Below, in pieces: positions 1 to 61,664 of a DNA stretch of 64,000 bases. The stretch lies in NCBI GenBank assembly GCA_037783545.1, contig JBBELK010000213.1:1054001-1118000 (forward strand), in the 5' to 3' direction. Position 1 is the stretch's first letter. Each line of letters begins with the position of its first letter. The DNA comes from Henricia sp. BOLD:AAB3569. Its lineage: Eukaryota; Echinodermata; Asteroidea; Spinulosida; Echinasteridae. Both the position numbers and the translations under genes were made by a program. A model generated the notes under the pieces. It saw only the letters and a list, made by a program, of their open reading frames with translations. It did no database searches and was not told the DNA's origin.

Positions 1-1
1 A

Positions 2-2923
2 AGCAAACTTAAAGAAATTCTCAAAGAGTATGGTAAAGAAAAATCACTTAAATATAATCAACAGACAAAGGCTGTTCAAAATAAGTATAGGGATCTCACA
101 CATAATCCAAACCATAATACTGATGAATTAAATCGCCTTGAACAACAGCTGAAAACCATTGAAACTAACGAGTGGGAAAAGGCTCGTGTAAGGACACATT
201 TGAAAAATAAGTCTGAAGGTGAAAAACCTAGCAAGTTCTTTCTTGCTATCGAAAAACAAAGAACCAAGAATAATGCTATGGCAACTATAAAAGACGCTGA
301 GGGCGTCCCACTTACAGAATTTAGATATATTGTTAAGCGTATCAATGAGTTTTACTCCCAGTTATATTCTACTGATGGCACTGACCCCCATGAGCAACAA
401 ACAATTATAGATGATGTCAACTCACACGAAATCGAGGAACCTGAGATTTTGGAAAGTAATATTTCAGGAGCTGAAATTACACTTGCTCTCCAGCAAATGA
501 ATAAAGATAAATCACCCGGTATTGATGGGCTGACAGTAGAGTTTTATCTCAAGTTTTGGACTATTCTTAAAGATGATCTTTTGAGTGTTTTTCAAGAATG
601 CAAAGAAGGAGGTTCACTTCCCAATACAATGAGCACTGCTCTTATTAGATTAATATACAAAAACAAAAGGGATAGGGAAGACCTAAAAAATTGGCGTCCA
701 ATTAGTTTATTGACAGTAGATTACAAAATACTTGCTAAAGTCTTAACTAACCGACTTCGCAAATGTATGCCTAATTTGATTGGAGAAGAGCAAAGCAGTG
801 GGGTATCAGGTAGAAATATTCACGATAATCTAATGATTCTAAGAGATGTTGTAGATGACCTTAACATGAACAATAAACAAGGGGGGCTCCTAAGTATTGA
901 TCAAGAAAAAGCCTTTGACAGGATAGAATGGGATTACATGTATGAAATTATGAATAAGCTCGGCATTCCTCAGGGGTTCATTGATTACATAATGGTTTTG
1001 TACAGCAGACCGAAAAGTTGCGTCATTGTGAATAACTATATAACTCGTCCCTTTGACGTAACCAGAGGTATCCGGCAGGGTTGCCCCTTGTCACCGCTTT
1101 TGTACACCATCTGTGCAGAAGGATTGGCCTGTCTAATTAGAAATAATACAAACTTAACGGGTATCCCAATTCCATACACTGATGATCAAGTCAAATTAAT
1201 ACAGCATGCTGATGACACGACGGTTTTTATTTCTCGTGATGAAGATTTTCCGATTTTAGCAAACATTCTAAATATATACAATGAAGGCACGGGATCCAAA
1301 ACAAATATTCAGAAATCAACAGGGCTCTGGCTTGGAACCTGGAAATCGAGGACAGATTGCCCAGGGGGGTATAATTGGGTCAATGACAAGATTAAGATTT
1401 TAGGGGTTTATATTGGCAATGAAGTAACCCAGTCTGACAACTGGGACCCCAGAATAAACAAGATTAAGAGTGTTTTTAACAGTTTTAAGGGAAGGAATTT
1501 AACTTTAAAAGGAAAAGCAGTCATCATCAACACTTATGCTGGAGCTAGTATTAATTATGTGGGAAGTGTTGTGCCATGTAATGATGATTCAATAAAAAAA
1601 ATGGATAAATGTATTTGGGACTTTTATTGGAACAGTAAACCTGATAAAATTAACAGAGATACAGTCAGAGGTCCTAAGGAAAGAGGAGGTACAGAGGTTT
1701 TGAATGTAAAACATAGATTAACTTGTCTGAAATTAAATTGGTTCACCCGTTTTAGCACATGTACTGGAAAATGGAAACAATATTTTGATTATTGGATCAA
1801 GAGAGCTAGTGCTAAAGGTTTAGGTTGGTATGTTTTAGGGAATTACCCTACAGCCTTAAATACCAGTGAATTTTATCGAGAGGTAATTAAAGCATTTCAT
1901 AACTGCGGAGGACGTATTAACTTAGTTATATCCTGTAAGCAAGAAGCACACAACGTCCCACTGTGGCAAAATGCCCTACTAACGGGCAACAAACAAAAAA
2001 AACTTGTTGGTAACATTTTAAGTGAAAATGGAATAAAAAAACTAGGTGATGTTATGTCAGGTGATAAACTCAAGTCACTCACATTGATTTCCAAACAATA
2101 TGATATTAGACCTGGTACTGTTACCAGAACAATGAATGATTTAAGAGTAAATATTAGACCAAACCTTTTAAAGGAAACAAGGAGTGGACCAGAAAACCAT
2201 ATATGCAATATGCTAGAAATTAGTAATTATGAAAATGATGCAGATTATTATGTTCTTAACAAATCATTAATGAAATTCATGTATAGAAACTTGGTAATAA
2301 AGACCTTTGTAAAACCCAAAGCCGAACAAAAATGGGAAATAATTTTTAATAGGACTTCTCCTCCGAACTGGACCTTAAGTTGGAAAAGGGGATATAGTAA
2401 ATTAATTGATCCAAATGATAGAGATTTATGGTTTAAAATTAAACACAGGATTTTGCCAACAAGAGATCTATTGTATAAAATAGGGATTACTGAAAATGAC
2501 AGATGTTTAATTTGTAATGAAAATCAAGAGACTACAGAGCACCTTTTTATTTATTGCTGTAAAACCTTTGAGACATGGAATTTTGTTGAAAATTTGCTCC
2601 GAATATACGGTGATGACAAACATTTTTATTTAAATGATATTTGTAGAATCCTTGGTATTGGTCCAGGAATTAATAGTACTGCTTGTGTGCTTTTTTGTAA
2701 GGTTTTTCGTGTTATTTGGAACTTAAGGGTTCAAATATCTCTGTCTGCAGCGCAAGAGAAAAATACATACGTTCCTGACATACTTGGTGTATATAAAAGA
2801 CAACTAAAACAATACTTACGTATGGAAGTCAAAAGATTACACCGCAGGGATTTTGAACAAATTTACACTCAAAATAGGGCTATTTGTTGGATGGATGGGG
2901 AACAATTGAACTATGCATTCTAG
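2..2923 (+). CDS. ORF2 protein (reverse transcriptase, C-terminal zinc knuckle), 5'-partial, open reading frame
   Basis: The reading frame is open from the first codon in the window (position 2) to TAG at 2921-2923, so the true start lies upstream. By alignment to copy 2, the endonuclease domain and ORF2 start are missing. The visible part holds the reverse transcriptase. Motifs are NWRPISLL, a motif A with the first catalytic Asp (SIDQEKAFDRIEW), the RQGCPLSPLLY block, and the catalytic box QHADDTTVF with HADD encoded at 1205-1216. A C-terminal CX2CX8HX4C knuckle (CLICNENQETTEHLFIYC, about 2503-2556) follows. The role is target-primed reverse transcription of the element RNA into 5S genes. 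Copy 2 has lost one T at the position of the TTTT run near 1246-1249, so this copy keeps the frame there. HADD in place of FADD or YADD is uncommon but keeps both aspartates. It could encode active enzyme if the unseen 5' part is intact. Confidence 0.95.
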   Translation, partial: SKLKEILKEYGKEKSLKYNQQTKAVQNKYRDLTHNPNHNTDELNRLEQQLKTIETNEWEKARVRTHLKNKSEGEKPSKFFLAIEKQRTKNNAMATIKDAEGVPLTEFRYIVKRINEFYSQLYSTDGTDPHEQQTIIDDVNSHEIEEPEILESNISGAEITLALQQMNKDKSPGIDGLTVEFYLKFWTILKDDLLSVFQECKEGGSLPNTMSTALIRLIYKNKRDREDLKNWRPISLLTVDYKILAKVLTNRLRKCMPNLIGEEQSSGVSGRNIHDNLMILRDVVDDLNMNNKQGGLLSIDQEKAFDRIEWDYMYEIMNKLGIPQGFIDYIMVLYSRPKSCVIVNNYITRPFDVTRGIRQGCPLSPLLYTICAEGLACLIRNNTNLTGIPIPYTDDQVKLIQHADDTTVFISRDEDFPILANILNIYNEGTGSKTNIQKSTGLWLGTWKSRTDCPGGYNWVNDKIKILGVYIGNEVTQSDNWDPRINKIKSVFNSFKGRNLTLKGKAVIINTYAGASINYVGSVVPCNDDSIKKMDKCIWDFYWNSKPDKINRDTVRGPKERGGTEVLNVKHRLTCLKLNWFTRFSTCTGKWKQYFDYWIKRASAKGLGWYVLGNYPTALNTSEFYREVIKAFHNCGGRINLVISCKQEAHNVPLWQNALLTGNKQKKLVGNILSENGIKKLGDVMSGDKLKSLTLISKQYDIRPGTVTRTMNDLRVNIRPNLLKETRSGPENHICNMLEISNYENDADYYVLNKSLMKFMYRNLVIKTFVKPKAEQKWEIIFNRTSPPNWTLSWKRGYSKLIDPNDRDLWFKIKHRILPTRDLLYKIGITENDRCLICNENQETTEHLFIYCCKTFETWNFVENLLRIYGDDKHFYLNDICRILGIGPGINSTACVLFCKVFRVIWNLRVQISLSAAQEKNTYVPDILGVYKRQLKQYLRMEVKRLHRRDFEQIYTQNRAICWMDGEQLNYAF

Positions 2924-3056
2924 TTTCAGACGTCCTATTGTTGCAATTTTTATCATATACATACATATAAAGTAACTTAATTATGTACGAAGTACGTAAA
3001 TTGTAGATACTGTATGCATGGAGATGTGTTAATAAATGGAGTCTAACTCCTCTCAG
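2924..3056 (+). other. Retrotransposon 3' UTR, copy 1
   Basis: The 133-bp UTR between the ORF2 stop and the A tail is AT-rich. It contains an AATAAA signal at 3031-3036 and GTACGAAGTAC, whose CGAAGTAC (2988-2995) is the exact complement of 5S nucleotides 75-82 across the insertion point. By eye it is identical to the copy 2 UTR. Confidence 0.85.
3031..3036 (+). promoter_or_regulatory. Polyadenylation signal AATAAA, copy 1
   Basis: A canonical AATAAA hexamer lies 20 nt before the A tail at 3057, the normal spacing for a Pol II polyadenylation signal. This suggests the element RNA is a Pol II mRNA. Confidence 0.85.
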
Positions 3057-3063
3057 AAAAAAA

Positions 3064-3105
3064 CTTCGGTGGGAGACCACCTGGGAATACCGAGTGTCGT
3101 AGGCA
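3064..3105 (+). pseudogene. 5S rRNA 3' fragment (nt 78-119) interrupted by copy 1
   Basis: These 42 bases run from CTTCGGTGGG to the end of the 5S gene. The 5' 77 nt of the same gene must lie upstream of copy 1, outside the window. The gene cannot make 5S rRNA because TFIIIA boxes A and C are separated by the element. Confidence 0.95.
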
Positions 3106-35700: not shown

Positions 35701-37326
35701 TTAATTGTAAACGTTTAAAATTACGCAAACCTGTTAAGCATTCGTCTACGACCATACCCCATTGAATACACCGGTTCCCGTCTGATCACCGCAGTTAAGC
35801 AACGTTGGGCTCGGTCAGTACTTCGGTGGGAGACCACCTGGGAATACCGAGTGTCGTAGGCACTTTTGTTTTGTCGAGTAAAATATTGTTCTTCAGTAAA
35901 CGTTTAAAATTACGCAAACCTGTTAAGCATTCGTCTACGACCATACCACATTGAATACACCGGTTCCCGTCTGATCACCGCAGTTAAGCAACGTTGGACT
36001 CGGTCAGTACTTCGGTGGGAGACCACCTGGGAATACCGAGTGTCGTAGGCACTTTTGTTTTTAGCAAAATATTGTTCTTCTGTAAACGTTTCAAATTACG
36101 CAAACCTGTTAAGCATTCGTCTACGACCATACCACATTGAATACACCGGTTCCCGTCTGATCACCGCAGTTAAGCAACGTTGGGCTCGGTCAGTACTTCG
36201 GTGGGAGACCACCTGGGAATACCGAGTGTCGTAGGCACTTGTGTTTTGTCGAGTAAAATATTGTTCTTCAGTAAACGTTTAAAATTACGCAAACCTGTTA
36301 AGCATTCGTCTACGACCATACCACATTGAATACACCGGTTCCCGTCTGATCACCGCAGTTAAGCAACGTTGGGCTCGGTCAGTACTTCGGTGGGAGACCA
36401 CCTGGGAATACCGAGTGTCGTAGGCACTTTTGTTTTTAGTAAAATATTGTTCTTCTGTAAACATTTCAAATTACGCAAACCTGTTAAGCATTCGTCTACG
36501 ACCATACCACATTGAATACACCGGTTCCCGTCTGATCACCGCAGTTAAGCAACGTTGGGCTCGGTCAGTACTTCGGTGGGAGACCACCTGGGAATACCGA
36601 TTGTCGTAGGCACTTTTGTTTTGTCGAGTAAAATATTGTTCTTCAGTAAACGTTTAAAATTACGCAAACCTGTTAAGCATTCGTCTACGACCATACCACA
36701 TTGAATACACCGGTTCCCGTCTGATCACCGGAGTTAAGCAACGTTGGGCTCGGTCAGTACTTCGGTGGGATACCACCTGGGAATACCAAGTGTCGTAGGC
36801 ACTTTTGTTTTGTCGAGTAAAATATTGTTCTTCAGTAAACGTTTAAAATTACGCAAACCTGTTAAGCATTCGTCTACGACCATACCACATTGAATACACC
36901 GGTTCCCGTCTGATCACCGCAGTTAAGCAACGTTGGGCTCGGTCAGTACTTCGGTGGGAGACCACATGGGAATACCGAGTGTCGTAGGCACTTTTGTTTT
37001 GTCGAGTAAAATATTGTTCTTCAGTAAACGTTTAAAATTACGCAAACCTGTCAAGCATTCGTCTACGACCATACCACATTGAATACACCGGTTCCCGTCT
37101 AATCACCGCAGTTAAGCAACGTTGGCCTCGGTCAGTACTTCGGTGGGAGACCACCTGGGAATACCGAGTTTCGTAGGCACTTTTGTTTTGTCGAGTAAAA
37201 TATTGTTTAATTGTAAACGTTTAAAATTACGCAAACCTGTTAAGCATTCGTCTACGACCATACCCCATTGAATACACCGGTTCCCGTCTGATCACCGCAG
37301 TTAAGCAACGTTGGGCTCGGTCAGTA
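32800..37326 (+). repeat. Higher-order repeat: 2,262-bp segment in two tandem copies next to copy 2
   Basis: Twelve units (10 long, 2 short) are present twice in tandem, with the join near 35060. Shared markers include CACCGGAG at 34469/36731 and CTGTCAAG at 34790/37052. The second copy ends at the retrotransposon insertion, so this duplication directly borders the element. Confidence 0.8.
37250..37326 (+). pseudogene. 5S rRNA 5' fragment (nt 1-77) interrupted by copy 2
   Basis: The gene starts normally and stops after GGTCAGTA, nt 77, where the element begins with GACACGG. Box A and the intermediate element are kept; box C is moved nearly 6 kb downstream. Pol III initiation here is therefore unlikely, and any transcript would meet a T5 run at 37338-37342. 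Confidence 0.95.
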
Positions 37327-37529
37327 GACACGGATAGTTTTTCGGCTCTTAAATTTATGTCTTTTTGAGGCCTATATCCTGCTCCTTTTGCACAGCTAAT
37401 AGTTTCATCTTCAGTACAAACTCTAAGAACACCGGATTGAGGTGAGATTGACTGTTTTTCGAGGGCCTTTGGCCCTACTTCCTGTGGTCAAGTACAGGAG
37501 ACTTGCGTGTAGCCGCCATCTTGGCCACG
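37327..37529 (+). promoter_or_regulatory. Retrotransposon 5' UTR / presumed internal Pol II promoter
   Basis: This 203-bp leader precedes the first good ATG of ORF1. It holds two T5 runs (37338-37342 and about 37361-37365) that could stop Pol III coming from the split 5S gene. It also holds a minimal upstream ORF (ATG TCT TTT TGA, 37357-37368). Two small hairpins follow, AGGGCC/GGCCCT at 37462-37476 and CCTGT/ACAGG at 37481-37498, and a YY1-like site at 37512. LINEs generally carry an internal promoter in this region. The start of transcription is assumed to be the first base of the element. Confidence 0.65.
37512..37523 (+). promoter_or_regulatory. YY1-like binding site GCCGCCATCTTG
   Basis: The 12 bases match the classical YY1 motif in its GCCGCCAT orientation. 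In human L1 a YY1 site in the 5' UTR positions transcription initiation, and in many animal genes a YY1 site lies just after the start site. Here it lies 7 bp before the ORF1 ATG. Binding is inferred from sequence only. Confidence 0.5.
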
Positions 37530-39323
37530 ATGTATGCCGCCAAGGCTAACCGTCAGGTACTACGGAGACCGAATACCATCAAGTTTTATCCGAAGGATCT
37601 CGGAAATGTAATTTCAAGAGAAGTGTATGACGCCATAAGGAAGGAATTAGGCACAGTAGAAACCACAAAATGCATCGCCCCCCTCGACAGCGGCTGGTAC
37701 AATGTGACTTTCAACAACGAACGGGACTGCGAACAAATAGCTCAGCGAGGGCTAATCATACAAGATCTACTGATGCAATGTGAACGAGCCAACATTCAAA
37801 ATTCGCTTGTTGTTTACGCAAAGGTGCCTTATGAGATGAGCGATAATACCGTCATTGGTGCATTATTGCCGTACGGGACTGTGGTTAATGTTAGGCACCA
37901 AGTGCATGATTTCGACCCTAACATTGCAACTGGAGTTAGGAGTATGCTAGTCAATAATGTTAAAAAGCCAATACCCAGTTTTGTGAAAATAGCCGGCTTC
38001 TCACTCCCCATGAAATACCGTGGACAGCAAAAAACGTGCAAAATTTGTCAGAAACCAGGCCATTTTGCAAGAGACTGTGAACTAAAAGGCAGGTGCTTTG
38101 TTTGTGGTAGTTATGACCACAGATCAACTTGGCATGACCGACAGGAAAAGGTGGAGCTGGAAAGTCCTACGATTGTCATACCGGAAGAGGAGAATGCAAG
38201 TTCAGATGAGGACGATATCACCCAAGACGAAGACACCAACACAGAGGACGAGGAGGACATGACCAGAGATGAGGAAGACACTACCGAAGATGAGCAAGAC
38301 ACCACCAAAGATGAGCAAGACACCACCAAAGATGGAGAGGACACCACCAACGATGAGGAGGACACTCGCAAAGATGAGGAGGACACTCGCAAAGATGAGG
38401 AGGACACTCGCAAAGATGAGGAGGACACTCGCAAAGATAAAAAGGACACTCGCAAAGATAAAGAGGACACTCGCAAAGATAAAGAGGACACTCGCAAAGA
38501 TAAAAAGGACACCCGAAAAGATAAAGAGGACACTCGCAAAGATAAAGAGGACACTCGCAAAGATAAAGAGGACACTCGCAAAGATAAAGAGGACACCCGC
38601 AAAGATAAAGAGGGCACCCGCAAAGATGAGGAAGGCACTCGCAAAGATAAAAAGGACACTCGCAAAGATAAAGAGGACACTCGCAAAGATAAAGAGGACA
38701 CTCGCAAAGATAAAAAGGACACCCGCAAAGATAAAGAGGACACTCGCAAAGATAAAGAGGACACTCGCAAAGATAAAGAGGACACTCGCAAAGATAAAGA
38801 GGATACGAGTCAAGGTGACAAGAACAACAAGAAGGGTAACACTCAAAAAGGGAAAGGAACTCCCTCAAAAACCAACCAAGACAAAACTCCAGTTCAAAAG
38901 TCGAACAAACTAGCAAATAAAAACACTCGAGCCACAAATCTTCCTGAAGATCACAACATGTATACAGCCAAAGCCCCCGTAAATGAACCTACAGCAGAAG
39001 ACTTTGAAGACATGGAAACGACGCAAGATGCTGAAAGTCACGACCGCGAGGATAGTCCAAGTCCATCCTGTGCAGACCGAGTCAAACAACACCCCTCTGG
39101 GAAAATAACCCACGAAAAGCACCACGAAACAAATACAAACCCTGAAAACGTACCTGCCGAGGGAAGTGATGAGCAAGGACCATGGAAAGAACTAAAAAGT
39201 CACAAGAAACGAATTGGGAGAACAACACCCTACCCACAACCCAGAGGACGGGGCAGAGGCAGGAACAGAGAAATTCAAGCACAACCAGTTGGTCGCGAGT
39301 GTACATCAACCCAGAAAAAATAA
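37530..39323 (+). CDS. ORF1 protein: zinc-knuckle nucleic-acid-binding (gag-like) protein with charged heptad repeats
   Basis: The chosen start is ATG at 37530 (A at -3), giving 597 residues; the frame is open nine codons further up but has no earlier ATG. The N-terminal ~165 residues form a folded-looking region like that preceding the knuckles in Tx1-type ORF1 and ZCCHC3-like proteins. Next come a CX2CX4HX4C knuckle (CKICQKPGHFARDC) and a second CX2CX4HX4H knuckle (CFVCGSYDHRSTWH). An acidic stretch follows, then about 21 copies of the heptad EDTRKDK coded by a 21-bp minisatellite (38355-38795). The tail is basic and ends in an RG-rich segment (RGRGRGRNR). The role is binding the element RNA to form the ribonucleoprotein and assisting strand exchange, inferred from the family. 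The ORF is intact. It ends in TAA, in the same frame as ORF2. Confidence 0.9.
   Translation: MYAAKANRQVLRRPNTIKFYPKDLGNVISREVYDAIRKELGTVETTKCIAPLDSGWYNVTFNNERDCEQIAQRGLIIQDLLMQCERANIQNSLVVYAKVPYEMSDNTVIGALLPYGTVVNVRHQVHDFDPNIATGVRSMLVNNVKKPIPSFVKIAGFSLPMKYRGQQKTCKICQKPGHFARDCELKGRCFVCGSYDHRSTWHDRQEKVELESPTIVIPEEENASSDEDDITQDEDTNTEDEEDMTRDEEDTTEDEQDTTKDEQDTTKDGEDTTNDEEDTRKDEEDTRKDEEDTRKDEEDTRKDKKDTRKDKEDTRKDKEDTRKDKKDTRKDKEDTRKDKEDTRKDKEDTRKDKEDTRKDKEGTRKDEEGTRKDKKDTRKDKEDTRKDKEDTRKDKKDTRKDKEDTRKDKEDTRKDKEDTRKDKEDTSQGDKNNKKGNTQKGKGTPSKTNQDKTPVQKSNKLANKNTRATNLPEDHNMYTAKAPVNEPTAEDFEDMETTQDAESHDREDSPSPSCADRVKQHPSGKITHEKHHETNTNPENVPAEGSDEQGPWKELKSHKKRIGRTTPYPQPRGRGRGRNREIQAQPVGRECTSTQKK
38355..38795 (+). 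repeat. 21-bp minisatellite within ORF1 (about 21 units)
   Basis: Near-identical 21-bp units (AAAGAGGACACTCGCAAAGA plus T) code for the heptad KEDTRKD, with KKDTRKD, EEDTRKD and KEGTRKD variants. Some more diverged acidic units precede it (about 38220-38354). Because 21 is a multiple of three, length changes keep the frame. The KK-KE-KE-KK pattern itself repeats, indicating expansion by whole blocks. No frame of the unit has a stop codon, so long spurious ORFs arise on both strands. Confidence 0.95.
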
Positions 39324-39344
39324 AATGGTAAATTATCCTTAATG
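39321..39344 (+). promoter_or_regulatory. ORF1/ORF2 junction with five-codon ORF and TAATG stop-start overlap
   Basis: ORF1 ends with TAA at 39321-39323. ATG at 39325 opens a five-codon ORF (M V N Y P) whose TAA at 39340-39342 shares its last A with the first ATG of ORF2 (39342-39344), giving TAATG. In the silkworm LINE SART1 a UAAUG overlap between the two ORFs is known to support translational coupling. Here the overlap involves a relay ORF rather than ORF1 itself. ORF1 and ORF2 are also in the same frame with only one stop between them. The mechanism is inference. Confidence 0.6.
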
Positions 39345-42300
39345 TTTATGAAAGGTGTTTTATTCACTGTGAGTCTCTTCATTATGGCGCTTAATGTAGT
39401 AACACTCAATTGCAATGGATTGAGAAATAATATGAAAAGAGATACAATATTTAATTACATGCATAGAAGGAAAATCGATGTTGCTCTTTTGCAAGAGACT
39501 CACAGTGAAAAAGAGGACGAGAGCTTTTGGAGTAAGCAGTGGGGTGGTGAAATCGCCTTTAGTCATGGACTGAGAAATTCAAGGGGGGTTGGAATTCTTA
39601 TTTCGAATAAAATTACAGCAAAACTCACCAACATCAAGCGAGATGATGAAGGCAGATTTATTATTGGCGAACTAAACTTGGACAACCAAAAAATTACTGT
39701 TGCTTCAGTGTATGCTCCAAATGCTCTCGGCCCCAGAAACTGCTTTTTTGGGAAACTTTGTGATGTCCTTGTTGATTCTGAAAATCTAATTATTGGAGGA
39801 GATTTCAATTGTAATATTGATCTTGGTATGAGTAAGGAAAAGAGTAGTATTGCCTTTCTAAAATTGGTTCAACAAAATAATTTGATTGATGTGTGGCGTT
39901 CAATCCATCCTAGTGAGTTGGGCTACACACATTACAATAAAAGTACTAAAACAAGTAGCAGAATTGATTACTTCCTAATGTCGGCCAAATTAATATGCAA
40001 CCTTGAACACATACTTATTAATGCTGTCGGGTTTTCTGATCACAACCTCATTTTAATGAAGTTAATTGACAAAAAAACAGTAAGCGGACCAGGCAGATGG
40101 ATGTGTAATAACGATAATCTTGAAGATCCGGAATGTGTTAACAGAGTAACACATTTTTGGAAATACTGGCAAACCAAACAATTCTGCTATAACACCATCA
40201 CTGACTGGTGGGAAATGGGGAAAAGCAAACTTAAAGAAATTCTTAAAGAGTATGGTAAAGAAAAATCACTTAAATATAATCAACAGACAAAGGCTGTTCA
40301 AAAGAAGTACAGGGATCTCACAAATAATCCAAACCATAATACTGATGAATTAAATCGCCTTGAACAACAGCTGAAAACCATTGAAACTAACGAGTGGGAA
40401 AAGGCTCGTGTAAGGACACATTTGAAAAATAAGTCTGAAGGTGAAAAACCTAGCAAGTTCTTTCTTGCTATCGAAAAACAAAGAACCAAGAATAATGCTA
40501 TGGCAACTATAAAAGACGCTGAGGGCGTCCCACTTACAGAATTTAGATATATTGTTAAGCGTATCAATGAGTTTTACTCCCAGTTATATTCTACTGATGG
40601 CACTGACCCCCATGAGCAACAAACAATTATAGATGATGTCAACTCACACGAAATCGAGGAACCTGAGATTTTGGAAAGTAATATTTCAGGAGCTGAAATT
40701 ACACTTGCTCTCCAGCAAATGAATAAAGATAAATCACCCGGTATTGATGGGCTGACAGTAGAGTTTTATCTCAAGTTTTGGACTATTCTTAAAGATGATC
40801 TTTTGAGTGTTTTTCAAGAATGCAAAGAAGGAGGTTCACTTCCCAATACAATGAGCACTGCTCTTATTAGATTAATATACAAAAACAAAGGGGATAGGGA
40901 AGACCTAAAAAATTGGCGTCCAATTAGTTTATTGACAGTAGATTACAAAATACTTGCTAAAGTCTTAACTAACCGACTTCGCAAATGTATGCCTAATTTG
41001 ATTGGAGAAGAGCAAAGCAGTGGGGTATCAGGTAGAAATATTCACGATAATCTAATGATTCTAAGAGATGTTGTAGATGACCTTAACATGAACAATAAAC
41101 AAGGGGGGCTCCTAAGTATTGATCAAGAAAAAGCCTTTGACAGGATAGAATGGGATTACATGTATGAAATTATGAATAAGCTCGGCATTCCTCAGGGGTT
41201 CATTGATTACATAATGGTTTTGTACAGCAGACCGAAAAGTTGCGTCATTGTGAATAACTATATAACTCGTCCCTTTGACGTAACCAGAGGTATCCGGCAG
41301 GGTTGCCCCTTGTCACCGCTTTTGTACACCATCTGTGCAGAAGGATTGGCCTGTCTAATTAGAAATAATACAAACTTAACGGGTATCCCAATTCCATACA
41401 CTGATGATCAAGTCAAATTAATACAGCATGCTGATGACACGACGGTTTTTATTTCTCGTGATGAAGATTTCCGATTTTAGCAAACATTCTAAATATATAC
41501 AATGAAGGCACGGGATCCAAAACAAATATTCAGAAATCAACAGGGCTCTGGCTTGGAACCTGGAAATCGAGGACAGATTGCCCAGGGGGGTATAATTGGG
41601 TCAATGACAAGATTAAGATTTTAGGGGTTTATATTGGCAATGAAGTAACCCAGTCTGACAACTGGGACCCCAGAATAAACAAGATTAAGAGTGTGTTTAA
41701 CAGTTTTAAGGGAAGGAATTTAACTTTAAAAGGAAAAGCAGTCATCATCAACACTTATGCTGGAGCTAGTATTAATTATGTGGGAAGTGTTGTGCCATGT
41801 AATGATGATTCAATAAAAAAAATGGATAAATGTATTTGGGACTTTTATTGGAACAGTAAACCTGATAAAATTAACAGAGATACAGTCAGAGGTCCTAAGG
41901 AAAGAGGAGGTACAGAGGTTTTGAATGTAAAACATAGATTAACTTGTCTGAAATTAAATTGGTTCACCCGTTTTAGCACATGTACTGGAAAATGGAAACA
42001 ATATTTTGATTATTGGATCAAGAGAGCTAGTGCTAAAGGTTTAGGTTGGTATGTTTTAGGGAATTACCCTACAGCCTTAAATACCAGTGAATTTTATCGA
42101 GAGGTAATTAAAGCATTTCATAACTGCGGAGGACGTATTAACTTAGTTATCTCCTGTAAGCAAGAAGCACACAACGTCCCACTGTGGCAAAATGCCCTAC
42201 TAACGGGCAACAAACAAACAAAACTTGTTGGTAAAATTTTAAGTGAAAATGGAATAAAAAAACTAGGTGATGTTATGTCAGGTGATAAACTCAAGTCACT

Positions 42301-43144
42301 CACATTGATTTCCAAACAATATGATATTAGACCTGGTACTGTTACCAGAACAATGAATGATTTAAGAGTAAATATTAATCCAAACCTTTTAAAGGAAACA
42401 AGGAGTGGACCAGAAAACCATATATGCAATATGCTAGAAATTAGTAATTATGAAAATGATGCAGATTATTATGTTCTTAACAAATCATTAACGAAATTCA
42501 TGTATAGAAACTTGGTAATAAAGACCTTTGTAAAACCCAAAGCCGAACAAAAATGGGAAATAATTTTTAATAGGACTTCTCCTCCGAACTGGACCTTAAG
42601 TTGGAAAAGGGGATATAGTAAATTAATTGATCCAAATGATAGAGATTTATGGTTTAAAATTAAACACAGGATTTTGCCAACAAGAGATCTATTGTATAAA
42701 ATAGGGATTACTGAAAATGACAGATGTTTAATTTGTAATGAAAATCAAGAGACTACAGAGCACCTTTTTATTTATTGCTGTAAAACCTTTGAGACATGGA
42801 ATTTTGTTGAAAATTTGCTCCGAAAATACGGTGATGACAAACATTTTTATTTAAATGATATTTGTAGAGTCCTTGGTATTGGTCCAGGAATTAATAGTAC
42901 TGCTTGTGTGCTTTTTTGTAAGGTTTTCCGTGTTATTTGGAACTTAAGGGTTCAAATATCTCTGTCTGCAGCGCAAGAGAAAAATACATACGTTCCTGAC
43001 ATACTTGGTGTATATAAAAGACAACTAAAACAATACTTACGTATGGAAGTCAAAAGATTACACCGCAGGGATTTTGAACAAATTTACACTCAAAATAGGG
43101 CTATTTGTTGGATGGATGGGGAACAATTGAAATATGCATTCTAG
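39342..43144 (+). pseudogene. ORF2 (APE endonuclease - reverse transcriptase - zinc knuckle), broken by a one-base frameshift
   Basis: ORF2 runs from ATG 39342, or more likely ATG 39384 (A at -3, G at +4, just before the endonuclease), to TAG at 43142-43144, about 1,250-1,270 codons in all. The APE-type endonuclease has NCNGLR, QETH (Glu ~52), GGDFNC (~152-157), RIDYF and SDHN (His ~234). The reverse transcriptase has motif A Asp ~594 and HADD ~696-699. The CX2CX8HX4C knuckle lies near 42725-42778. The frame is lost just after the HADD box: copy 1 has four Ts where this copy has three (41468-41470), so translation ends at TAG 41478-41480 after 712 codons. The rest (from about 41471) is open in another frame. 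The endonuclease and part of the RT could still be made. A homopolymer sequencing error is a real alternative. Confidence 0.92.
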
Positions 43145-43277
43145 TTTCAGACGTCCTATTGTTGCAATTTTTATCATATACATACATATAAAGTAACTTA
43201 ATTATGTACGAAGTACGTAAATTGTAGATACTGTATGCATGGAGATGTGTTAATAAATGGAGTCTAACTCCTCTCAG
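43145..43277 (+). other. Retrotransposon 3' UTR, copy 2
   Basis: The 133-bp UTR holds CGAAGTAC at 43209-43216, complementary to 5S nt 75-82 across the insertion point, within the near-palindrome GTACGAAGTAC. By eye it is identical to the copy 1 UTR, although the coding regions differ. In site-specific LINEs the 3' UTR is usually what the ORF2 protein recognises. Confidence 0.85.
43252..43257 (+). promoter_or_regulatory. Polyadenylation signal AATAAA, copy 2
   Basis: A canonical hexamer lies 20 nt before the start of the A tail, as in copy 1. Confidence 0.85.

Positions 43278-43310
<33 letters not shown>
43278..43310 (+). other. 33-base poly(A) tail of copy 2
   Basis: An uninterrupted run of 33 A joins the 3' UTR to 5S nt 78. 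The tail is pure, which suggests a recent insertion; copy 1 has only 7 A. Confidence 0.95.
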
Positions 43311-43312
<2 letters not shown>

Positions 43313-43352
43313 TCGGTGGGAGACCACCTGGGAATACCGAGTGTCGTAGGCA
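43311..43352 (+). pseudogene. 5S rRNA 3' fragment (nt 78-119) downstream of copy 2
   Basis: This is the other half of the gene at 37250-37326. Together the two halves make 119 nt with nothing missing, which shows a clean insertion. Confidence 0.95.
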
Positions 43353-43919: not shown

Positions 43920-43940
43920 CTTTTGTTTTTACCGAAGTAC
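43920..43940. other. Orientation-switch junction of the 5S array (tail to tail)
   Basis: The terminator T-run of the last + gene ends at 43930, and from 43931 the sequence is reverse-complement 5S, starting at nt 84 (ACCGAAGTACTGACC). No foreign sequence lies between. The shared A makes the join ambiguous by a base. Everything to the right is on the - strand. Confidence 0.9.
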
Positions 43941-50640: not shown

Positions 50641-51794
50641 TATTTTACTCGACAAAACAAAAGTGCCTACGACACTCGGTATTCCCAGGTGGTCTCCCAC
50701 CGAAGTACTGACCGAGCCCAACGTTGCTTAAATGCGGTGATCAGACGGGAACCGGTGTATTCAATGTGGTATGGTCGTAGACGAATGCTTAACAGGTTTG
50801 CGTAATTTTAAACGTTTACTGAAGAACAATATTTTACTCGACAAAACAAAAGTGCCTACGACACTCGGTATTCCCAGGTGGTCTCCCACCGAAGTACTGA
50901 CCGAGCCCAACGTTGCTTAACTGCGGTGATCAGACGGGAACCGGTGTATTCAATGTGGTATGGTCGTAGACGAATGCTTAACAGGTTTGCGTAATTGGAA
51001 ACGTTTACTGAAGAACAATATTTTACTCGACAAAACAAAAGTGGCTACGACACTAGGTATTCCCAGGTGGTCTCCCACCGAAGTACTGACCGAGCCCAAC
51101 GTTGCTTAACTGCGGTGATCAGACGGGAACCGGTGTATTCAATGTGGTATGGTCGTAGACGAATGCTTAACAGGTTTGCGTAGTTTTAAACGTTTACTGA
51201 AGAACAATATTTTACTCGACAAAACAAAAGTGCCTACGACACTCGGTATTCCCAGGTGGTCTCCCACCGAAGTACTGACCGAGCCCAACGTTGCTTAACT
51301 GCGGTGATCAGACGGGAACCGGTGTATTCAATGTGGTATGGTCGTAGACGAATGCTTAACAGGTTTGCGTAATTTTAAACGTTTACTGAAGAACAATATT
51401 TTACTAAAAACAAAAGTGCCTACGACACTCGGTATTCCCAGGTGGTCTCCCACCGAAGTACTGACCGAGCCCAACGTTGCTTAACTGCGGTGATCAGACG
51501 GGAACCGGTGTATTCAATGTGGTATGGTCGTAGACGAATGCTTAACAGGTTTGCGTAATTGGAAACGTTTACTGAAGAACAATATTTTACTCGACAAAAC
51601 AAAAGTGCCTACGACACTAGGTATTCCCAGGTGGTCTCCCACCGAAGTACTGACCGAGCCCAACGTTGCTTAACTGCGGTGATCAGACGGGAACCGGTGT
51701 ATTCAATGTGGTATGGTCGTAGACGAATGCTTAACAGGTTTGCATAATTTTAAACGTTTACTGAAGAACAATATTTTACTCGACAAAACAAAAG

Positions 51795-51902
51795 TGCCTA
51801 CGACACTCGGTATTCCCAGGTGGTCTCCTGACCGAGCCCAACGTTGCTTAACTGCGGTGATCAGACGGGAACCGGTGTATTCAATGTGGTATGGTCGTAG
51901 AC
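51795..51902 (-). pseudogene. 5S rRNA gene with 11-bp deletion across the retrotransposon target (first)
   Basis: This gene is 108 nt long. On the + strand it reads GGTCTCCTGACCGAG, so on the gene strand GGTCAG is followed directly by GAGACC. Nt 75-85 (or 76-86) are lost, with a one-base ambiguity. The lost stretch contains the 77/78 insertion point and the 5' part of box C, so TFIIIA binding should be impaired. Confidence 0.92.
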
Positions 51903-52161
51903 GAATGCTTAACAGGTTTGCGTAATTTGAAACGTTTACTGAAGAACAATATTTTACTCGACAAAACAAAAGTGCCTACGACACTCGGTATTCCCAGGTG
52001 GTCTCCCACCGAAGTACTGACCGAGCCCAACGTTGCTTAACTGCGGTGATCAGACGGGAACCGGTGTATTCAATGTGGTATGGTCGTAGACGAATGCTAA
52101 ACAGGTTTGCATAATTTTAAACGTTTACTGAAGAACAATATTTTACTCGACAAAACAAAAG

Positions 52162-52269
52162 TGCCTACGACACTCGGTATTCCCAGGTGGTCTCCTGACC
52201 GAGCCCAACGTTGCTTAACTGCGGTGATCAGACGGGAACCGGTGTATTCAATGTGGTATGGTCGTAGAC
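52162..52269 (-). pseudogene. 5S rRNA gene with 11-bp deletion across the retrotransposon target (second)
   Basis: The same 11-bp deletion recurs 367 bp away, with the same neighbours (TTTGCATAATTTT spacer), so the pair arose by duplication of a two-unit block. Confidence 0.92.
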
Positions 52270-52899
52270 GAATGCTTAACAGGTTTGCGTAATTTGAAAC
52301 GTTTACTGAAGAACAATATTTTACTAGACAAAACAAAAGTGCCTACGACACTCGGTATTCCCAGGTGGTCTCCCACCGAAGTACTGACCGAGCCCAACGT
52401 TGCTTAACTGCGGTGATCAGACGGGAACCGGTGTATTCAATGTGGTATGGTCGTAGACGAATGCTTAACAGGTTTGCGTAATTTGAAACGTTTACTGAAG
52501 AACAATATTTTACTAAAAACAAAAGTGCCTACGACACTCGGTATTCCCAGGTGGTCTACCACCGACGTACTGACCGAGCCCAACGTTGCTTAACTGCGGT
52601 GATCAGACGGGAACCGGTGTATTGATTGTGGTATGGTCGTAGACGAATGCTTAACAGGTTTGCGTAATTTTAAACGTTTACTGAAGAACAATATTTTACT
52701 CGACAAAACAAAAGTGCCTACGACACTCGGTATTCCCAGGTGGTCTCCCACCGAAGTACTGACCGAGCCCAACGTTGCTTAACTGCGGTGATCAGACGAG
52801 ATCCGGTGTATTCAATGTGGTATGGTCGTAGACGAATGCTTAACAGCTTTGCGTAATTGTAAACGTTTACTGAAGAACAATATTTTACTCGACAAAACA

Positions 52900-55800
52900 A
52901 AAGTGCCTACGACACTCGGTATTCCCAGGTGGTCTCCCACCGAAGTACTGACCGAGCCCAACGTTGCTTAACTGCGGTGATCAGACGGGATCCGGTGTAT
53001 TCAATGTGGTATGGTCGTAGACGAATGCTTAACAGGTTTGCGTAATTTGAAACGTTTACTGAAGAACAATATTTTACTCGACAAAACAAAAGTGCCTACG
53101 ACACTCGGTATTCCCAGGTGGTCTCCCACCGAAGTACTGACCGAGCCCAACGTTGCTTAACTGCGGTGATCAGACGGGAACCGGTGTATTCAATGTGGTA
53201 TGGTCGTAGACGAATGCTTAACAGGTTTGCGTAATTTTAAACGTTTACTGAAGAACAATATTTTACTCGACAAAACAAAAGTGCCTACGACACTCGGTAT
53301 TCCCAGGTGGTCTCCCACCGAAGTACTGACCGAGCCCAACGTTGCTTAACTGCGGTGATCAGACGGGAACCGGTGTATTCAATGTGGTATGGTCGTAGAC
53401 GAATGCTTAACAGGTTTGCGTAATTTGAAAAGTTTACTGAAGAACAATATTTTACTAAAAACAAAAGTGCCTACGACACTCGGTATTCCCAGGTGGTCTC
53501 CCACCGAAGTACTGACCGAGCCCAACGTTGCTTAACTGCGGTGATCAGACGGGAACCGGTGTATTCAATGTGGTATGGTCGTAGACGAATGCTTAACAGG
53601 TTTGCGTAATTTTAAACGTTTACTGAAGAACAATATTTTACTCGACAAAACAAAAGTGCCTACGACACTCGGTATTCCCAGGTGGTCTCCCACCGAAGTA
53701 CTGACCGAGCCCAACGTTGCTTAACTGCGGTGATCAGACGGGAACCGGTGTATTCAATGTGGTATGGTCGTAGACGAATGCTTAACAGGTTTGCGTAATT
53801 TGAAACGTTTACTGAAGAACAATATTTTACTAAAAACAAAAGTGCCTACGACACTCGGTATTCCCAGGTGGTCTCCCACCGACGTACTGACCGAGCCCAA
53901 CGTTGCTTAACTGCGGTGATCAGACGGGAACCGGTGTATTCAATGTGGTATGGTCGTAGACGAATGCTTAACAGGTTGGCGTAATTTGAAACGTTTACTG
54001 AAGAACAATATTTTACTCGACAAAACAACAGTGCCTACGACACTCGGTATTCCCAGGTGGTCTCCCACCGAAGTACTGACCGAGCCCAACGTTGCTTAAC
54101 TGCGGTGATCAGACGGGAACCGGTGTATTCAATGTGGTATGGTCGTAGACGAATGCTTAATAGGTTTGCGTGATTTGAAACGTTTACTGAAGAACAATAT
54201 TTTACTAAAAACAAAAGTGCCTACGACACTCGGTATTCCCAGGTGGTCTCCCACCGAAGTACTGACCGAGCCCAACGTTGCTTAACTGCGGTGATCAGAC
54301 GGGAACCGGTGTATTCAATGTGGTATGGTCGTAGACGAAAGCTTAATAGGTTTGCGTAATTTGAAACGTTTACTGAAGAACAATATTTTACTAAAAACAA
54401 AAGTGCCTACGACACTCGGTATTCCCAGGTGGTCTCCCACCGAAGTACTGACCGAGCCCAACGTTGCTTAACTGCGGTGATCAGACGGGAACCGGTGTAT
54501 TCAATGTGGTATGGTCGTAGACGAATGCTTAACAGGTTTGCGTAATTTTAAACGTTTACTGAAGAACAATATTTTACTCGACAAAACAAAAGTGCCTACG
54601 ACACTCGGTATTCCCAGGTGGTCTCCCACCGAAGTACTGACCGAGCCCAACGTTGCTTAACTGCGGTGATCAGACGGGATCCGGTGTATTCAATGTGGTA
54701 TGGTCGTAGACGAATGCTTAACAGGTTTGCGTAATTTGAAACGTTTACTGAAGAACAATATTTTACTCGACAAAACAAAAGTGCCTACGACACTCGGTAT
54801 TCCCAGGTGGTCTCCCACCGAAGTACTGACCGAGCCAAACGTTGCTTAACTGCGGTGATCAGACGGGAACCGGTGTATTCAATGTGGTATGATCGTAGAC
54901 GAATGCTTAACAGGTTTGCGTAATTTTAAACGTTTACTGAAGAACAATATTTTACTCGACAAAACAAAAGTGCCTACGACACTCGGTATTCCCAGGTGGT
55001 CTCCCACCGAAGTACTGACCGAGCCCAACGTTGCTTAACTGCGGTGATCAGACGGGAACCGGTGTATTCAATGTGGTATGGTCGTAGACGAATGCTTAAC
55101 AGGTTTGCGTAATTTGAAACGTTTACTGAAGAACAATATTTTACTAAAAACAAAAGTGCCTACGACACTCGGTATTCCTAGGTGGTCTCCCACCGAAGTA
55201 CTGACCGAGCCCAACGTTGCTTAACTGCGGTGATCAGACGGGAACCGGTGTATTCAATGTGGTATGGTCGTAGACGAATGCTTAACAGGTTTGCGTAATT
55301 TTAAACGTTTACTGAAGAACAATATTTTACTCGACAAAACAAAAGTGCCTACGACACTCGGTATTCCCAGGTGGTCTCCCACCGAAGTACTGACCGAGCC
55401 CAACGTTGCTTAACTGCGGTGATCAGACGGGAACCGGTGTATTCAATGTGGTATGGTCGTAGACGAATGCTTAACAGGTTTGCGTAATTTGAAACGTTTA
55501 CTGAAGAACAATATTTTACTAAAAACAAAAGTGCCTACGACACTCGGTATTCCCAGGTGGTCTCCCACCGACGTACTGACCGAGACCAACGTTGCTTAAC
55601 TGCGGTGATCAGACGGGAACCGGTGTATTCAATGTGGTATGGTCGTAGACGAATGCTTAACAGGTTGGCGTAATTTGAAACGTTTACTGAAGAACAATAT
55701 TTTACTCGACAAAACAACTGTGCCTACGACACTCGGTATTCCCAGGTGGTCTCCCACCGAAGTACTGACCGAGCCCAACGTTGCTTAACTGCGGTGTTCA

Positions 55801-55950
55801 GACGGGAACCGGTGTATTCAATGTGGTATGGTCGTAGACGAATGCTTAATAGGTTTGCGTGATTTGAAACGTTTACTGAAGAACAATATTTTACTAAAAA
55901 CAAAAGTGCCTACGACACTCGGTATTCCCAGGTGGTCTCCCACCGAAGTA
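52900..55950 (-). repeat. Right-arm higher-order repeat, offset 1,689 bp
   Basis: Units at 52907 and 53846 recur at 54596 and 55535 with their variants (GGATCC for GGTTCC, CGACGTACTG, GTTGGCGTAA, AAACAAC before the gene). This is a nine-unit duplication with a few private changes. Confidence 0.75.
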
Positions 55951-56092
55951 CTGACCGAGCCCAACGTTGCTTAACTGCGGTGATCAGACGCGATCCGGTG
56001 TATTCAATGCGGTATGGTCGTAGACGAATGCTTAACAGGTTTGCGTAATTTGAAACGTTTACAGAAGAACAATATTTTACTAAAAACAAAAG

Positions 56093-56146
56093 TGCCTGCG
56101 GTGATCAGACGGGAACCGGTGTATTCAATGTGGTATGGTCGTAGAC
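56093..56146 (-). pseudogene. 54-nt 5S rRNA remnant (nt 52-116 deleted), copy 1 of 5
   Basis: On the gene strand, GATCACCGCAG (to nt 51) is joined to GCACTTTTG (from nt 117), removing 65 nt that include nearly all of boxes A and C. The unit before it carries GCGATCCGG and CAATGCGG, a linked variant. It cannot encode 5S rRNA. Confidence 0.93.
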
Positions 56147-58658
56147 GAATGCTTAACAGGTTTGCGTAATTTGAAACGTTTACTGAAGAACAATATTTTA
56201 CTCGACAAAACAAAAGTGCCTACGACACTCGGTATTCCCAGGTGGTCTCCCACCGAAGTACTGACCGAGCCCAACGTTGCTTAACTGCGGTGATCAGACG
56301 GGAACCGGTGTATTCAATGTGGTATGGTCGTAGACGAATGCTTAACAGGTTTCCGTAATTTTAAACGTTTACTGAAGAACAATATTTTACTCGACAAAAC
56401 AAAAGTGCCTACGACACTCGGTATTCCCAGGTGGTCTCCCACCGAAGTACTGCCCGAGCCCAACGTTGCTTAACTGCAGTGATCTGACGGGAACCGGTGT
56501 ATTCATTGTGGTATGGTCGTAGACGAATTCTTAACAGGTTTGCGTAATTTTAAACGTTTACTGAAGAACAATATTTTACTCGACAAAACAAAAGTGCCTA
56601 CGACACTCGGTATTCCCAGGTGGTCTCCCACCGAAGTACTGACCGAGCCCAACGTTGCTTAACTGCGGTGATCAGACGGGAACCGGTGTATTCAATGTGG
56701 TATGGTCGTAGACGAATGCTTAACAGGTTGGCGTAATTTGAAACGTTTACTGAAGAACAATATTTTACTCGACAAAACAAAAGTGCCTAAGACACTCGGT
56801 ATTCCCAGGTGGTCTCCCACCGAAGTACTGACCGAGCCCAACTTTGCTTAACTGCGGTGATCAGACGGGAACCGGTGTATTCAATGTGGTATGGTCGTAG
56901 ACGAATGCTTAACAGGTTTGCGTAATTTTAAACGTTTACTGAAGAACAATATTTTACTCGACAAAACAAAAGTGCCTACGACACTCGGTATTTCCAGGTG
57001 GTCTCCCACCGAAGTACTGACCGAGCCCAACGTTGCTTAACTGCGGTGATCAGACGGGAACCGGTGTATTCAATGTGGTATGGTCGTAGACGAATGCTTA
57101 ACAGGTTTGCGTAATTTGAAACGTTTACTGAAGAACAATATTTTACTCGACAAAACAAAAGTGCCTACGACACTCGGTATTCCCAGGTGGTCTCCCACCG
57201 AAGTACTGACCGAGCCCAACGTTGCTTAACTGCGGTGATCAGACGGGAACCGGTGTATTCAATGTGGTATGGTCGTAGACGAATGCTTAATAGGTTTGCG
57301 TAATTTGAAACGTTTACTGAAGAACAATATTTTACTAAAAACAAAAGTGCCTACGACACTCGGTATTCCCAGGTGGTCTCCCACCGAAGTACTGACCGAG
57401 CCCAACGTTGCTTAACTGCGGTGATCAGACGGGAACCGGTGTATTCAATGTGGTATGGTCGTAGACGAAAGCTTAATAGGTTTGCGTAATTTGAAACGTT
57501 TACTGAAGAACAATATTTTACTAAAAACAAAAGTGCCTACGACACTCGGTATTCCCAGGTGGTCTCCCACCGAAGTACTGACCGAGCCCAACGTTGCTTA
57601 ACTGCGGTGATCAGACGGGAACCGGTGTATTCAATGTGGTATGGTCGTAGACGAATGCTTAACAGGTTTGCGTAATTTTAAACGTTTACTGAAGAACAAT
57701 ATTTTACTCGACAAAACAAAAGTGCCTACGACACTCGGTATTCCCAGGTGGTCTCCCACCGAAGTACTGACCGAGCCAAACGTTGCTTAACTGCGGTGAT
57801 CAGACGGGAACCGGTGTATTCAATGTGGTATGGTCGTAGACGAATGCTTAACAGGTTTGCGTAATTTTAAACGTTTACTGAAGAACAATATTTTACTCGA
57901 CAAAACAAAAGTGCCTACGACACTCGGTATTCCCAGGTGGTCTCCCACCGAAGTACTGACCGAGCCCAACGTTGCTTAACTGCGGTGATCAGACGGGAAC
58001 CGGTGTATTCAATGTGGTATGGTCGTAGACGAATGCTTAACAGGTTTGCGTAATTTGAAACGTTTACTGAAGAACAATATTTTACTAAAAACAAAAGTGC
58101 CTACGACACTCGGTATTCCTAGGTGGTCTCCCACCGAAGTACTGACCGAGCCCAACGTTGCTTAACTGCGGTGATCAGACGGGAACCGGTGTATTCAATG
58201 TGGTATGGTCGTAGACGAATGCTTAACAGGTTTGCGTAATTTTAAACGTTTACTGAAGAACAATATTTTACTCGACAAAACAAAAGTGCCTACGACACTC
58301 GGTATTCCCAGGTGGTCTCCCACCGAAGTACTGACCGAGCCCAACGTTGCTTAACTGCGGTGATCAGACGGGAACCGGTGTATTCAATGTGGTATGGTCG
58401 TAGACGAATGCTTAACAGGTTTGCGTAATTTGAAACGTTTACTGAAGAACAATATTTTACTAAAAACAAAAGTGCCTACGACACTCGGTATTCCCAGGTG
58501 GTCTCCCACCGACGTACTGACCGAGCCCAACGTTGCTTAACTGCGGTGATCAGACGCGATCCGGTGTATTCAATGCGGTATGGTCGTAGACGAATGCTTA
58601 ACAGGTTTGCGTAATTTGAAACGTTTACAGAAGAACAATATTTTACTAAAAACAAAAG

Positions 58659-58712
58659 TGCCTGCGGTGATCAGACGGGAACCGGTGTATTCAATGTGGT
58701 ATGGTCGTAGAC
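58659..58712 (-). pseudogene. 54-nt 5S rRNA remnant, copy 2 of 5
   Basis: The same 65-nt deletion with the same linked GCGATCCGG/CAATGCGG neighbour, 2,566 bp from the first copy. Confidence 0.93.
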
Positions 58713-60099
58713 GAATGCTTAACAGGTTTGCGTAATTTGAAACGTTTACTGAAGAACAATATTTTACTCGACAAAACAAAAGTGCCTACGACACTCGGTA
58801 TTCCCAGGTGGTCTCCCACCGAAGTACTGACCGAGCCCAACGTTGCTTAACTGCGGTGATCAGACGGGAACCGGTGTATTCAATGTGGTATGGTCGTAGA
58901 CGAATGCTTAACAGGTTTCCGTAATTTTAAACGTTTACTGAAGAACAATATTTTACTCGACAAAACAAAAGTGCCTACGACACTCGGTATTCCCAGGTGG
59001 TCTCCCACCGAAGTACTGCCCGAGCCCAACGTTGCTTAACTGCAGTGATCTGACGGGAACCGGTGTATTCATTGTGGTATGGTCGTAGACGAATTCTTAA
59101 CAGGTTTGCGTAATTTTAAACGTTTACTGAAGAACAATATTTTACTCGACAAAACAAAAGTGCCTACGACACTCGGTATTCCCAGGTGGTCTCCCACCGA
59201 AGTACTGACCGAGCCCAACGTTGCTTAACTGCGGTGATCAGACGGGAACCGGTGTATTCAATGTGGTATGGTCGTAGACGAATGCTTAACAGGTTGGCGT
59301 AATTTGAAACGTTTACTGAAGAACAATATTTTACTCGACAAAACAAAAGTGCCTACGACACTCGGTATTCCCAGGTGGTCTCCCACCGAAGTACTGACCG
59401 AGCCCAACTTTGCTTAACTGCGGTGATCAGACGGGAACCGGTGTATTCAATGTGGTATGGTCGTAGACGAATGCTTAACAGGTTTGCGTAATTTTAAACG
59501 TTTACTGAAGAACAATATTTTACTCGACAAAACAAAAGTGCCTACGACACTCGGTATTTCCAGGTGGTCTCCCACCGAAGTACTGACCGAGCCCAACGTT
59601 GCTTAACTGCGGTGATCAGACGGGAACCGGTGTATTCAATGTGGTATGGTCGTAGACGAATGCTTAACAGGTTTGCGTAATTTGAAACGTTTACTGAAGA
59701 ACAATATTTTACTCGACAAAACAAAAGTGCCTACGACACTCGGTATTCCCAGGTGGTCTCCCACCGAAGTACTGACCGAGCCCAACGTTGCTTAACTGCG
59801 GTGATCAGACGGGAACCGGTGTATTCAATGTGGTATGGTCGTAGACGAATGCTTAATAGGTTTGCGTAATTTGAAACGTTTACTGAAGAACAATATTTTA
59901 CTAAAAACAAAAGTGCCTACGACACTCGGTATTCCCAGGTGGTCTCCCACCGAAGTACTGACCGAGCCCAACGTTGCTTAACTGCGGTGATCAGACGCGA
60001 TCCGGTGTATTCAATGCGGTATGGTCGTAGACGAATGCTTAACAGGTTTGCGTAATTTGAAACGTTTACAGAAGAACAATATTTTACTAAAAACAAAAG

Positions 60100-60153
60100 T
60101 GCCTGCGGTGATCAGACGGGAACCGGTGTATTCAATGTGGTATGGTCGTAGAC
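60100..60153 (-). pseudogene. 54-nt 5S rRNA remnant, copy 3 of 5
   Basis: The same deletion and neighbour, 1,441 bp after copy 2; the surrounding block has lost one or more units. Confidence 0.93.
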
Positions 60154-61165: not shown

Positions 61166-61219
61166 TGCCTGCGGTGATCAGACGGGAACCGGTGTATTCA
61201 ATGTGGTATGGTCGTAGAC
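61166..61219 (-). pseudogene. 54-nt 5S rRNA remnant, copy 4 of 5
   Basis: The same deletion and neighbour, but followed by the TTTTAAACG spacer and GCTTGACAGG rather than TTTGAAACG, so it has recombined with another unit class. Confidence 0.92.
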
Positions 61220-61664
61220 GAATGCTTGACAGGTTTGCGTAATTTTAAACGTTTACTGAAGAACAATATTTTACTCGACAAAACAAAAGTGCCTACGACA
61301 CTCGGTATTCCCAGGTGGTCTCCCACCGAAGTACTGACCGAGCCCAACGTTGCTTAACTGCGGTGATCAGACGGGAACCGGTGTATTCAATGTGGTATGG
61401 TCGTAGACGAATGCTTAACATGTTTGCGTAATTTTAAACGTTTACTGAAGAACAATATTTTACTCGACAAAACAAAAGTGCCTACGACACTCGGTATTCC
61501 CAGGTGGTCTCCCACCGAAGTACTGACCGAGCCCAACGTTGCTTAACTGCGGTGATCAGACGCGATCCGGTGTATTCAATGCGGTATGGTCGTAGACGAA
61601 TGCTTAACAGGTTTGCGTAATTTGAAACGTTTACAGAAGAACAATATTTTACTAAAAACAAAAG

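Follow-up and report, generated by a model that had tools for sequence, protein, structure and literature searches.

An L1/Tx1-type LINE at a fixed site of the 5S rRNA gene in the sea star Henricia, with decayed relatives at a second fixed target

Among site-specific long interspersed elements (LINEs), Mutsu is a member of the Tx1 group, and Tx1L of Xenopus inserts into Tx1D, which resembles a miniature inverted-repeat transposable element (MITE). How site-specific LINEs acquire or change their targets is an open question. Mutsu is known to target the 5S rRNA genes of zebrafish (available parts of PMC3706591 and PMC11202950), Jockey-like elements interrupt 5S-containing satellite arrays in Tribolium freemani (available part of PMC11202950), and the site in U2 small nuclear RNA genes has been reached by two distinct lineages, Keno and Utopia (available part of PMC4640811). 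In the open-licence literature that we surveyed, as far as its accessible text goes, we met no other LINEs inserted in 5S genes. We describe here a LINE present in two copies in a 64,000-nucleotide stretch of the genome of Henricia sp. (hereafter the window; contig C213, JBBELK010000213.1, positions 1,054,001-1,118,000). The assembly comprises 740.7 Mb in 2,104 contigs. Outside the two copies the window is a tandem 5S ribosomal DNA array with units of mostly 189 or 186 bp. We are highly confident that the element is a sequence-specific L1/Tx1-type retrotransposon without long terminal repeats (non-LTR), active or very recently active, whose 5S target would be nicked opposite A77/C78 (slashes mark joins or cuts throughout), and that, given a sister group with another fixed target, specificity changed within the lineage.

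The complete insertion in the window, copy 2 (37327..43310, + strand), is full length, ends in an A tail and interrupts a 5S gene lying on the same strand. The left part of this gene, nt 1-77 (37250..37326), ends in GGTCAGTA and the element begins with GACACGG at 37327; on the right the A tail runs into CTTCGGTGGG at 43311, the start of the 42-nt remainder of the gene, nt 78-119 (43311..43352). Copy 1 (1..3063, + strand) enters the window with its 3' part and A tail, its 5' part lying outside. Its tail ends at 3063 and CTTCGGTGGG begins at 3064, again nt 78 (right part of the gene at 3064..3105, + strand), while its 5' end, fetched from beyond the window (L023), joins GGTCAGTA to GACACGG as in copy 2. 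Within the window just these two copies have A-tail joins to CTTCGGTGGG, and the copy 2 junction is the single place where GGTCAGTA runs into non-5S sequence. The reading of the junctions bears out an earlier sequence-only reading of this DNA, which had placed copy 2 between nt 77 and 78 and the end of copy 1 at the same point. As that reading also had it, the two halves of the interrupted gene sum to the intact length (77 + 42 = 119 nt), which matches the intact 5S genes that Rfam finds near copy 2. Its further claim, that the insertion made no duplication or deletion, stands as a clean join, with a margin of about 1 nt: A77 may belong to the target, open the element or form part of the tail.

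We then tabulated both junctions across the assembly, a search that the sequence-only reading had called for, and the fixed target holds. We located the 5' junction GGTCAGTA/GACACGGATAG at 65 places, of which 62 match exactly and three have one mismatch (reversed-pattern control, 3). Searched alone, the 5' end of the element was found at 62 places (control, 0), 60 of them at the 5S junction; the two others are sister copies, treated below (C1051 and C2). The 3'-end pattern matched at 64 places (control, 0), 61 in 5S and three outside. Together with four copies that have variant 3' ends, these 61 matches make up 65 distinct 3' ends in 5S: 48 join at C78, nine at T79, four at AG/CTTTGG and four further downstream, so that 61 of the 65 tabulated lie at nt 78 or 79. 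The four AG/CTTTGG joins share one flank and are perhaps a single event. The converse pattern, poly(A)/CTTCGGTGGGAGACC, gave 61 places (control, 0), of which 60 are 3' ends already listed and the last (L108) belongs to the same family; this pattern misses the four off-site copies, L067, whose flank carries more mutations, and the three 3' ends outside 5S. Because all 61 places are occupied by this LINE family, no other tailed element was found at the nt-78 site genome-wide.

Most copies are complete, since 50 of the 59 paired 5' and 3' ends span 5.4-6.1 kb, with eight longer and one, a sister copy, shorter. Four fetched stretches (L103, L104, L105 and L109) contain 5S alone where the 5' end is expected; we read them as 5'-truncated copies, two of which belong to copies with the same flank. 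A further stretch (L107) has neither element nor 5S at that position and shows, by eye, an open frame like that of a mobile-element protein.

With the ATG at 37530 taken as the start of ORF1, the 5' untranslated region (UTR) of copy 2 covers 37327..37529 and is without an Rfam match; no match up to E 1, and no ribozyme like that of hepatitis delta virus (HDV), was found in the 5' region at 37327-37700. ORF1 of this copy (37530..39323, + strand) translates into 597 aa and matches Pfam PF00098 (E 2.5e-06). The ORF1 protein carries a CCHC zinc knuckle at aa 168-183, followed by a long acidic/basic repeat of seven residues whose copy number varies among copies. Of 20 copies that were fetched, 19 have an open ORF1, with lengths of 583-632 aa in 7-aa steps and one exception of 579 aa with a changed end. 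In one 5S-site copy (L024) the ORF1 region is broken by foreign sequence. The predicted structure of the N-terminal part of the protein was uninformative (mean pLDDT 33). ORF2 has 1,253 codons and is open in 15 of the 20 fetched copies, including copy 1, whose ORF2 runs open from the window start to 2923; two of the 15 (L026 and L027) are identical. In copy 2 one base is missing near 41.47 kb relative to copy 1. The first part of its ORF2, with an L1-type endonuclease and reverse transcriptase, therefore ends early (39342..41480, + strand), and the remainder follows in a different frame (41693..43144, + strand) with the zf-RVT region, placed here from the Pfam match in the corresponding stretch of copy 1. 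The 3' UTR (43145..43277, + strand) has AATAAA near its end and precedes the A tail (43278..43310, + strand).

In the ORF2 protein (P0002), Pfam recognizes Exo_endo_phos (E 2.8e-16) and RVT_1 (E 3.4e-32). Endonuclease and reverse transcriptase in one ORF, and an A tail at the 3' end with some 5'-truncated copies, both mark a non-LTR retrotransposon with an endonuclease of the apurinic/apyrimidinic (APE) type. The best relatives of ORF2 among solved structures (PDB) point to the L1/Tx1 superfamily, LINE-1 ORF2p scoring E 1.2e-86 against 1.5e-23 for R2, in a library that holds few LINE types and makes this a weak test; endonuclease and reverse transcriptase were aligned with LINE-1 ORF2p over ~690 residues. 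By this similarity we class the element as an L1/Tx1-type LINE. An R2-like identity was ruled out by the APE-type endonuclease, in place of a restriction-like one, and by the lack of a 5' HDV-like ribozyme match in Rfam. Nothing in the viral and prokaryote collections encodes a relative of the LINE. When a 2.1-kb ORF2 DNA query was run against the genome it returned 140 candidates, and the 40 that were scored have 99-100% identity. Divergence over ORF2 and the 3' UTR of 21 copies has a median of 0.48% and a maximum of 0.67%. The family is young, and its sequences suggest that it is probably active.

One could ask if the element is simply Mutsu, the zebrafish 5S-targeting LINE of the Tx1 group, in another host. 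This is possible, and we consider it somewhat doubtful. The target gene is the same (available part of PMC3706591), and Mutsu has two ORFs in ~5.5 kb (available part of PMC11202950) compared with ~6.0 kb here. On the other hand, maternal and somatic 5S genes of zebrafish are described as differing mainly in their 5' half and hence in retrotransposon target sites (available part of PMC5513064), which hints, without settling the matter, at a Mutsu site other than nt 77/78.

A second group of insertions shows what else this lineage can target. The three non-5S 3' ends and two non-5S 5' ends belong to diverged relatives with stops and frameshifts, 84-95% identical to the 5S family by piece and 91.0% over the longest piece (1,533 positions). 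A search for the sister 3' junction, allowing up to three mismatches, found 17 places (control, 6), seven with an element end and ten without. Two pairs among these seven lie in segments that were duplicated, which leaves five independent insertions, and all five join at one point, /CTGGTT. Both ends are known for two sister copies (C1051 and C2), each flanked by a ~15-bp duplication; the variant TTCAAAA is present in both duplicates of C2. The empty site predicted by joining the flanks occurs at 832 places (up to two mismatches; control, 0) and lies, in eight loci inspected by eye, inside a ~290-bp MITE-like repeat with ~30-bp inverted ends, which also match between L076 and L073. An RNA gene had been considered as the sister target and was rejected, as L073-L075 gave no Rfam match and the dispersed palindrome-ended repeat was found instead. 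Very short relatives also occur at the MITE-like site, one retaining the last 41 nt of the element (L078) and two the last ~105 nt (L080 and L082).

The 5' end GACACGG is common to both lineages, with GACGCGG in C2. Occupied MITE-like sites read GT, then A, then GACACGG, and the empty site reads GTC; the first base of the element is probably A, since GTA/GAC in occupied sites stands against GGTC in the empty one. The sister copies at the MITE-like repeat keep the same 5' and 3' ends as the 5S family. One LINE lineage has thus had two fixed targets in one genome, differing in cut stagger. Copies outside 5S genes, or at varied positions within them, had been named in the sequence-only reading as grounds for abandoning a fixed target. 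Such copies do exist, as diverged older relatives and as four shifted 3' joins out of 65, and the relatives themselves sit at one other fixed target; those grounds apply only in part.

As to the history of the lineage, we tentatively propose, at slightly less than even confidence, that it moved from the MITE-like repeat, with its ~15-bp stagger, to 5S nt 77/78, where insertion is blunt within 1 nt, keeping its ends and then expanding in an exceptionally large 5S array. The contrast between decayed MITE-site copies and young 5S copies suggests this direction, which the few overlapping decayed copies, judged from their alignment, do not suffice to root. The 5S copies could also look young as a result of concerted evolution. 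If true, the move would be a recent and traceable switch of endonuclease specificity and cut stagger.

Several observations weigh against a currently active element that selects nt 77/78 by its endonuclease. ORF2 is broken in five of the 20 fetched copies as well as in copy 2 of the window, and the specificity that we ascribe to the endonuclease is deduced from junctions only. Moreover, the four off-site 3' joins lie 16-42 nt downstream of the target: two at CTTTTG just past the gene (L012 and L069), one at nt 94 (L057) and one at about nt 100-102 (L055). The last is a scrambled copy; the other three are paired with a normal 5' junction, that of L069 with one mismatch. That all four remain inside the 5S unit is what one would expect if pol III factors or 5S chromatin tethered the element and thereby directed insertion, with the endonuclease contributing a weak local preference. 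We regard such tethering as unlikely, given that strand and nucleotide are fixed, that two of the four off-site joins use CTTTTG, a sequence similar to CTTCGG, and that close relatives are inserted at a fixed nucleotide of a repeat other than 5S.

The count of insertions also has to be lowered. With a flank defined as the 105 nt from T79 and the four off-site ends counted as four flanks, the 65 copies have 41 distinct right flanks, and 32 copies fall into eight identical-flank groups (sizes 8, 7, 4, 3, 3, 3, 2 and 2). The insertion events are fewer than 65, because some copies are array duplicates. A shared flank is not always a shared insertion, since the group of eight mixes C78 and T79 joins. 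It is very improbable that a few old insertions were merely multiplied by unequal exchange in the 5S array, their position owing nothing to target choice: the shared flanks (e.g. seven copies on two contigs with one flank) and the 9,981-bp higher-order repeat in the window array would agree with this, but as a sole cause it is ruled out by 41 flanks among 65 copies, by the presence of both C78 and T79 joins, by differing tail lengths and by three copies that used upstream poly(A) sites and still arrived at this place. Two further facts oppose it: the two window copies are unlike in sequence and in their number of ORF1 repeats, and the sister lineage entered a dispersed repeat five independent times at a single point.

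We return to target choice by the element itself, for which we propose the following mechanism. The ORF2 endonuclease would nick the bottom strand of the 5S gene opposite A77/C78, in a site presumably recognised in part through the bases A/CTT, and the poly(A) end of the element RNA would be reverse-transcribed from the nick (target-primed reverse transcription). In 5S the cut in the top strand would fall at that point or no more than 1 nt from it, and in the MITE-like target ~15 nt away; insertion in 5S would lack a target duplication because the two cuts nearly coincide. The fixed junctions are observed; the chemistry of the nick and the order of events would be those established for LINEs. 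We take nt 77/78 to lie between the intermediate element and box C of the 5S gene. Three copies (L010, L021 and L108) used upstream poly(A) sites and still joined at nt 78 or 79, from which it seems that the tail is enough to prime at the 3' end. No words of 10-12 bases are common to the element and 5S on either strand. By eye we noticed in the 3' UTR an 8-base word, CGAAGTAC, that complements the target-spanning bases of the top strand. Pairing of RNA and target through this word was set aside as chance; it is also present in several MITE-site relatives.

Two unusual copies concern the 3' ends of the transcripts. In L056 the element and its A tail are followed by 5S from nt 78 to ~100, a second A/T-rich tail and nt 78 again, which suggests a read-through transcript: RNA from an older insertion would have acquired a tail and gone back into the same site. 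In L015 (~6,640-6,740 after orientation) a second A-rich tail comes right after GGCACTTTT, which we presume to be where pol III terminates on the 5S gene, and is followed by spacer; this single case hints at an RNA that ended at the terminator.

The array that hosts the family is large. We counted 33,058 exact uninterrupted target sites in the assembly, using a 23-base stretch across the 5S target, which at 188 bp per unit corresponds to a 5S array total of ~6.2 Mb, or 0.84% of the assembly. With so many sites uninterrupted, ~0.2% of the 5S targets are occupied. For comparison, work on the 5S genes of pike placed more than 20,000 copies among the highest counts of rRNA genes in animals, and a slot blot there gave more than 200,000 (available part of PMC5437419). 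Within the window, array polarity reverses at 43920-43935, with + strand genes to the left and - strand genes to the right. The joint, ~620 bp from copy 2, falls in the right-hand gene at nt 84, which is 7 nt away from the LINE target; breakage at the target could explain this, as could chance. The higher-order repeat lies at 3064-37249, where 9,981 bp was the best self-shift among those of 9,000-16,000 bp. At 51726-61720 (- strand) the spacing of 5S starts is 121 bp in five cases and 178 bp in two, against the usual 185-190 bp.

A young 5S family and its decayed relatives in one genome, with different target duplications, make the accompanying changes of the endonuclease mappable and testable. 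The 5S target also offers a landing site that is precise and present in many copies, which is of interest for inserting genes safely.

Among known systems, LINE-1 provides the closest solved relatives of ORF2. LINE-1 is dispersed, and the element described here differs from it in the CCHC knuckle and long seven-residue repeat of ORF1 and in the zf-RVT region of ORF2. Keno and Utopia share with the Henricia element a fixed target in a small RNA gene, in their case that for U2 small nuclear RNA; Utopia has a restriction-like endonuclease, whereas the present LINE is of the APE type. The decayed sister copies, sitting at one point of a palindrome-ended dispersed repeat, resemble Tx1L in this respect. 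The Jockey-like elements of Tribolium freemani are likewise LINEs in 5S arrays, for which the available part of PMC11202950 gives no fixed nucleotide. Mutsu is similar in occupying 5S rRNA genes and in having two ORFs, a likeness drawn from its description only (available parts of PMC3706591 and PMC11202950), and the LINE of Henricia is set apart by relatives in the same genome that use a MITE-like target. Overall, LINEs that target 5S genes are already known, and what is new is that one lineage has had two fixed targets that differ in cut stagger.

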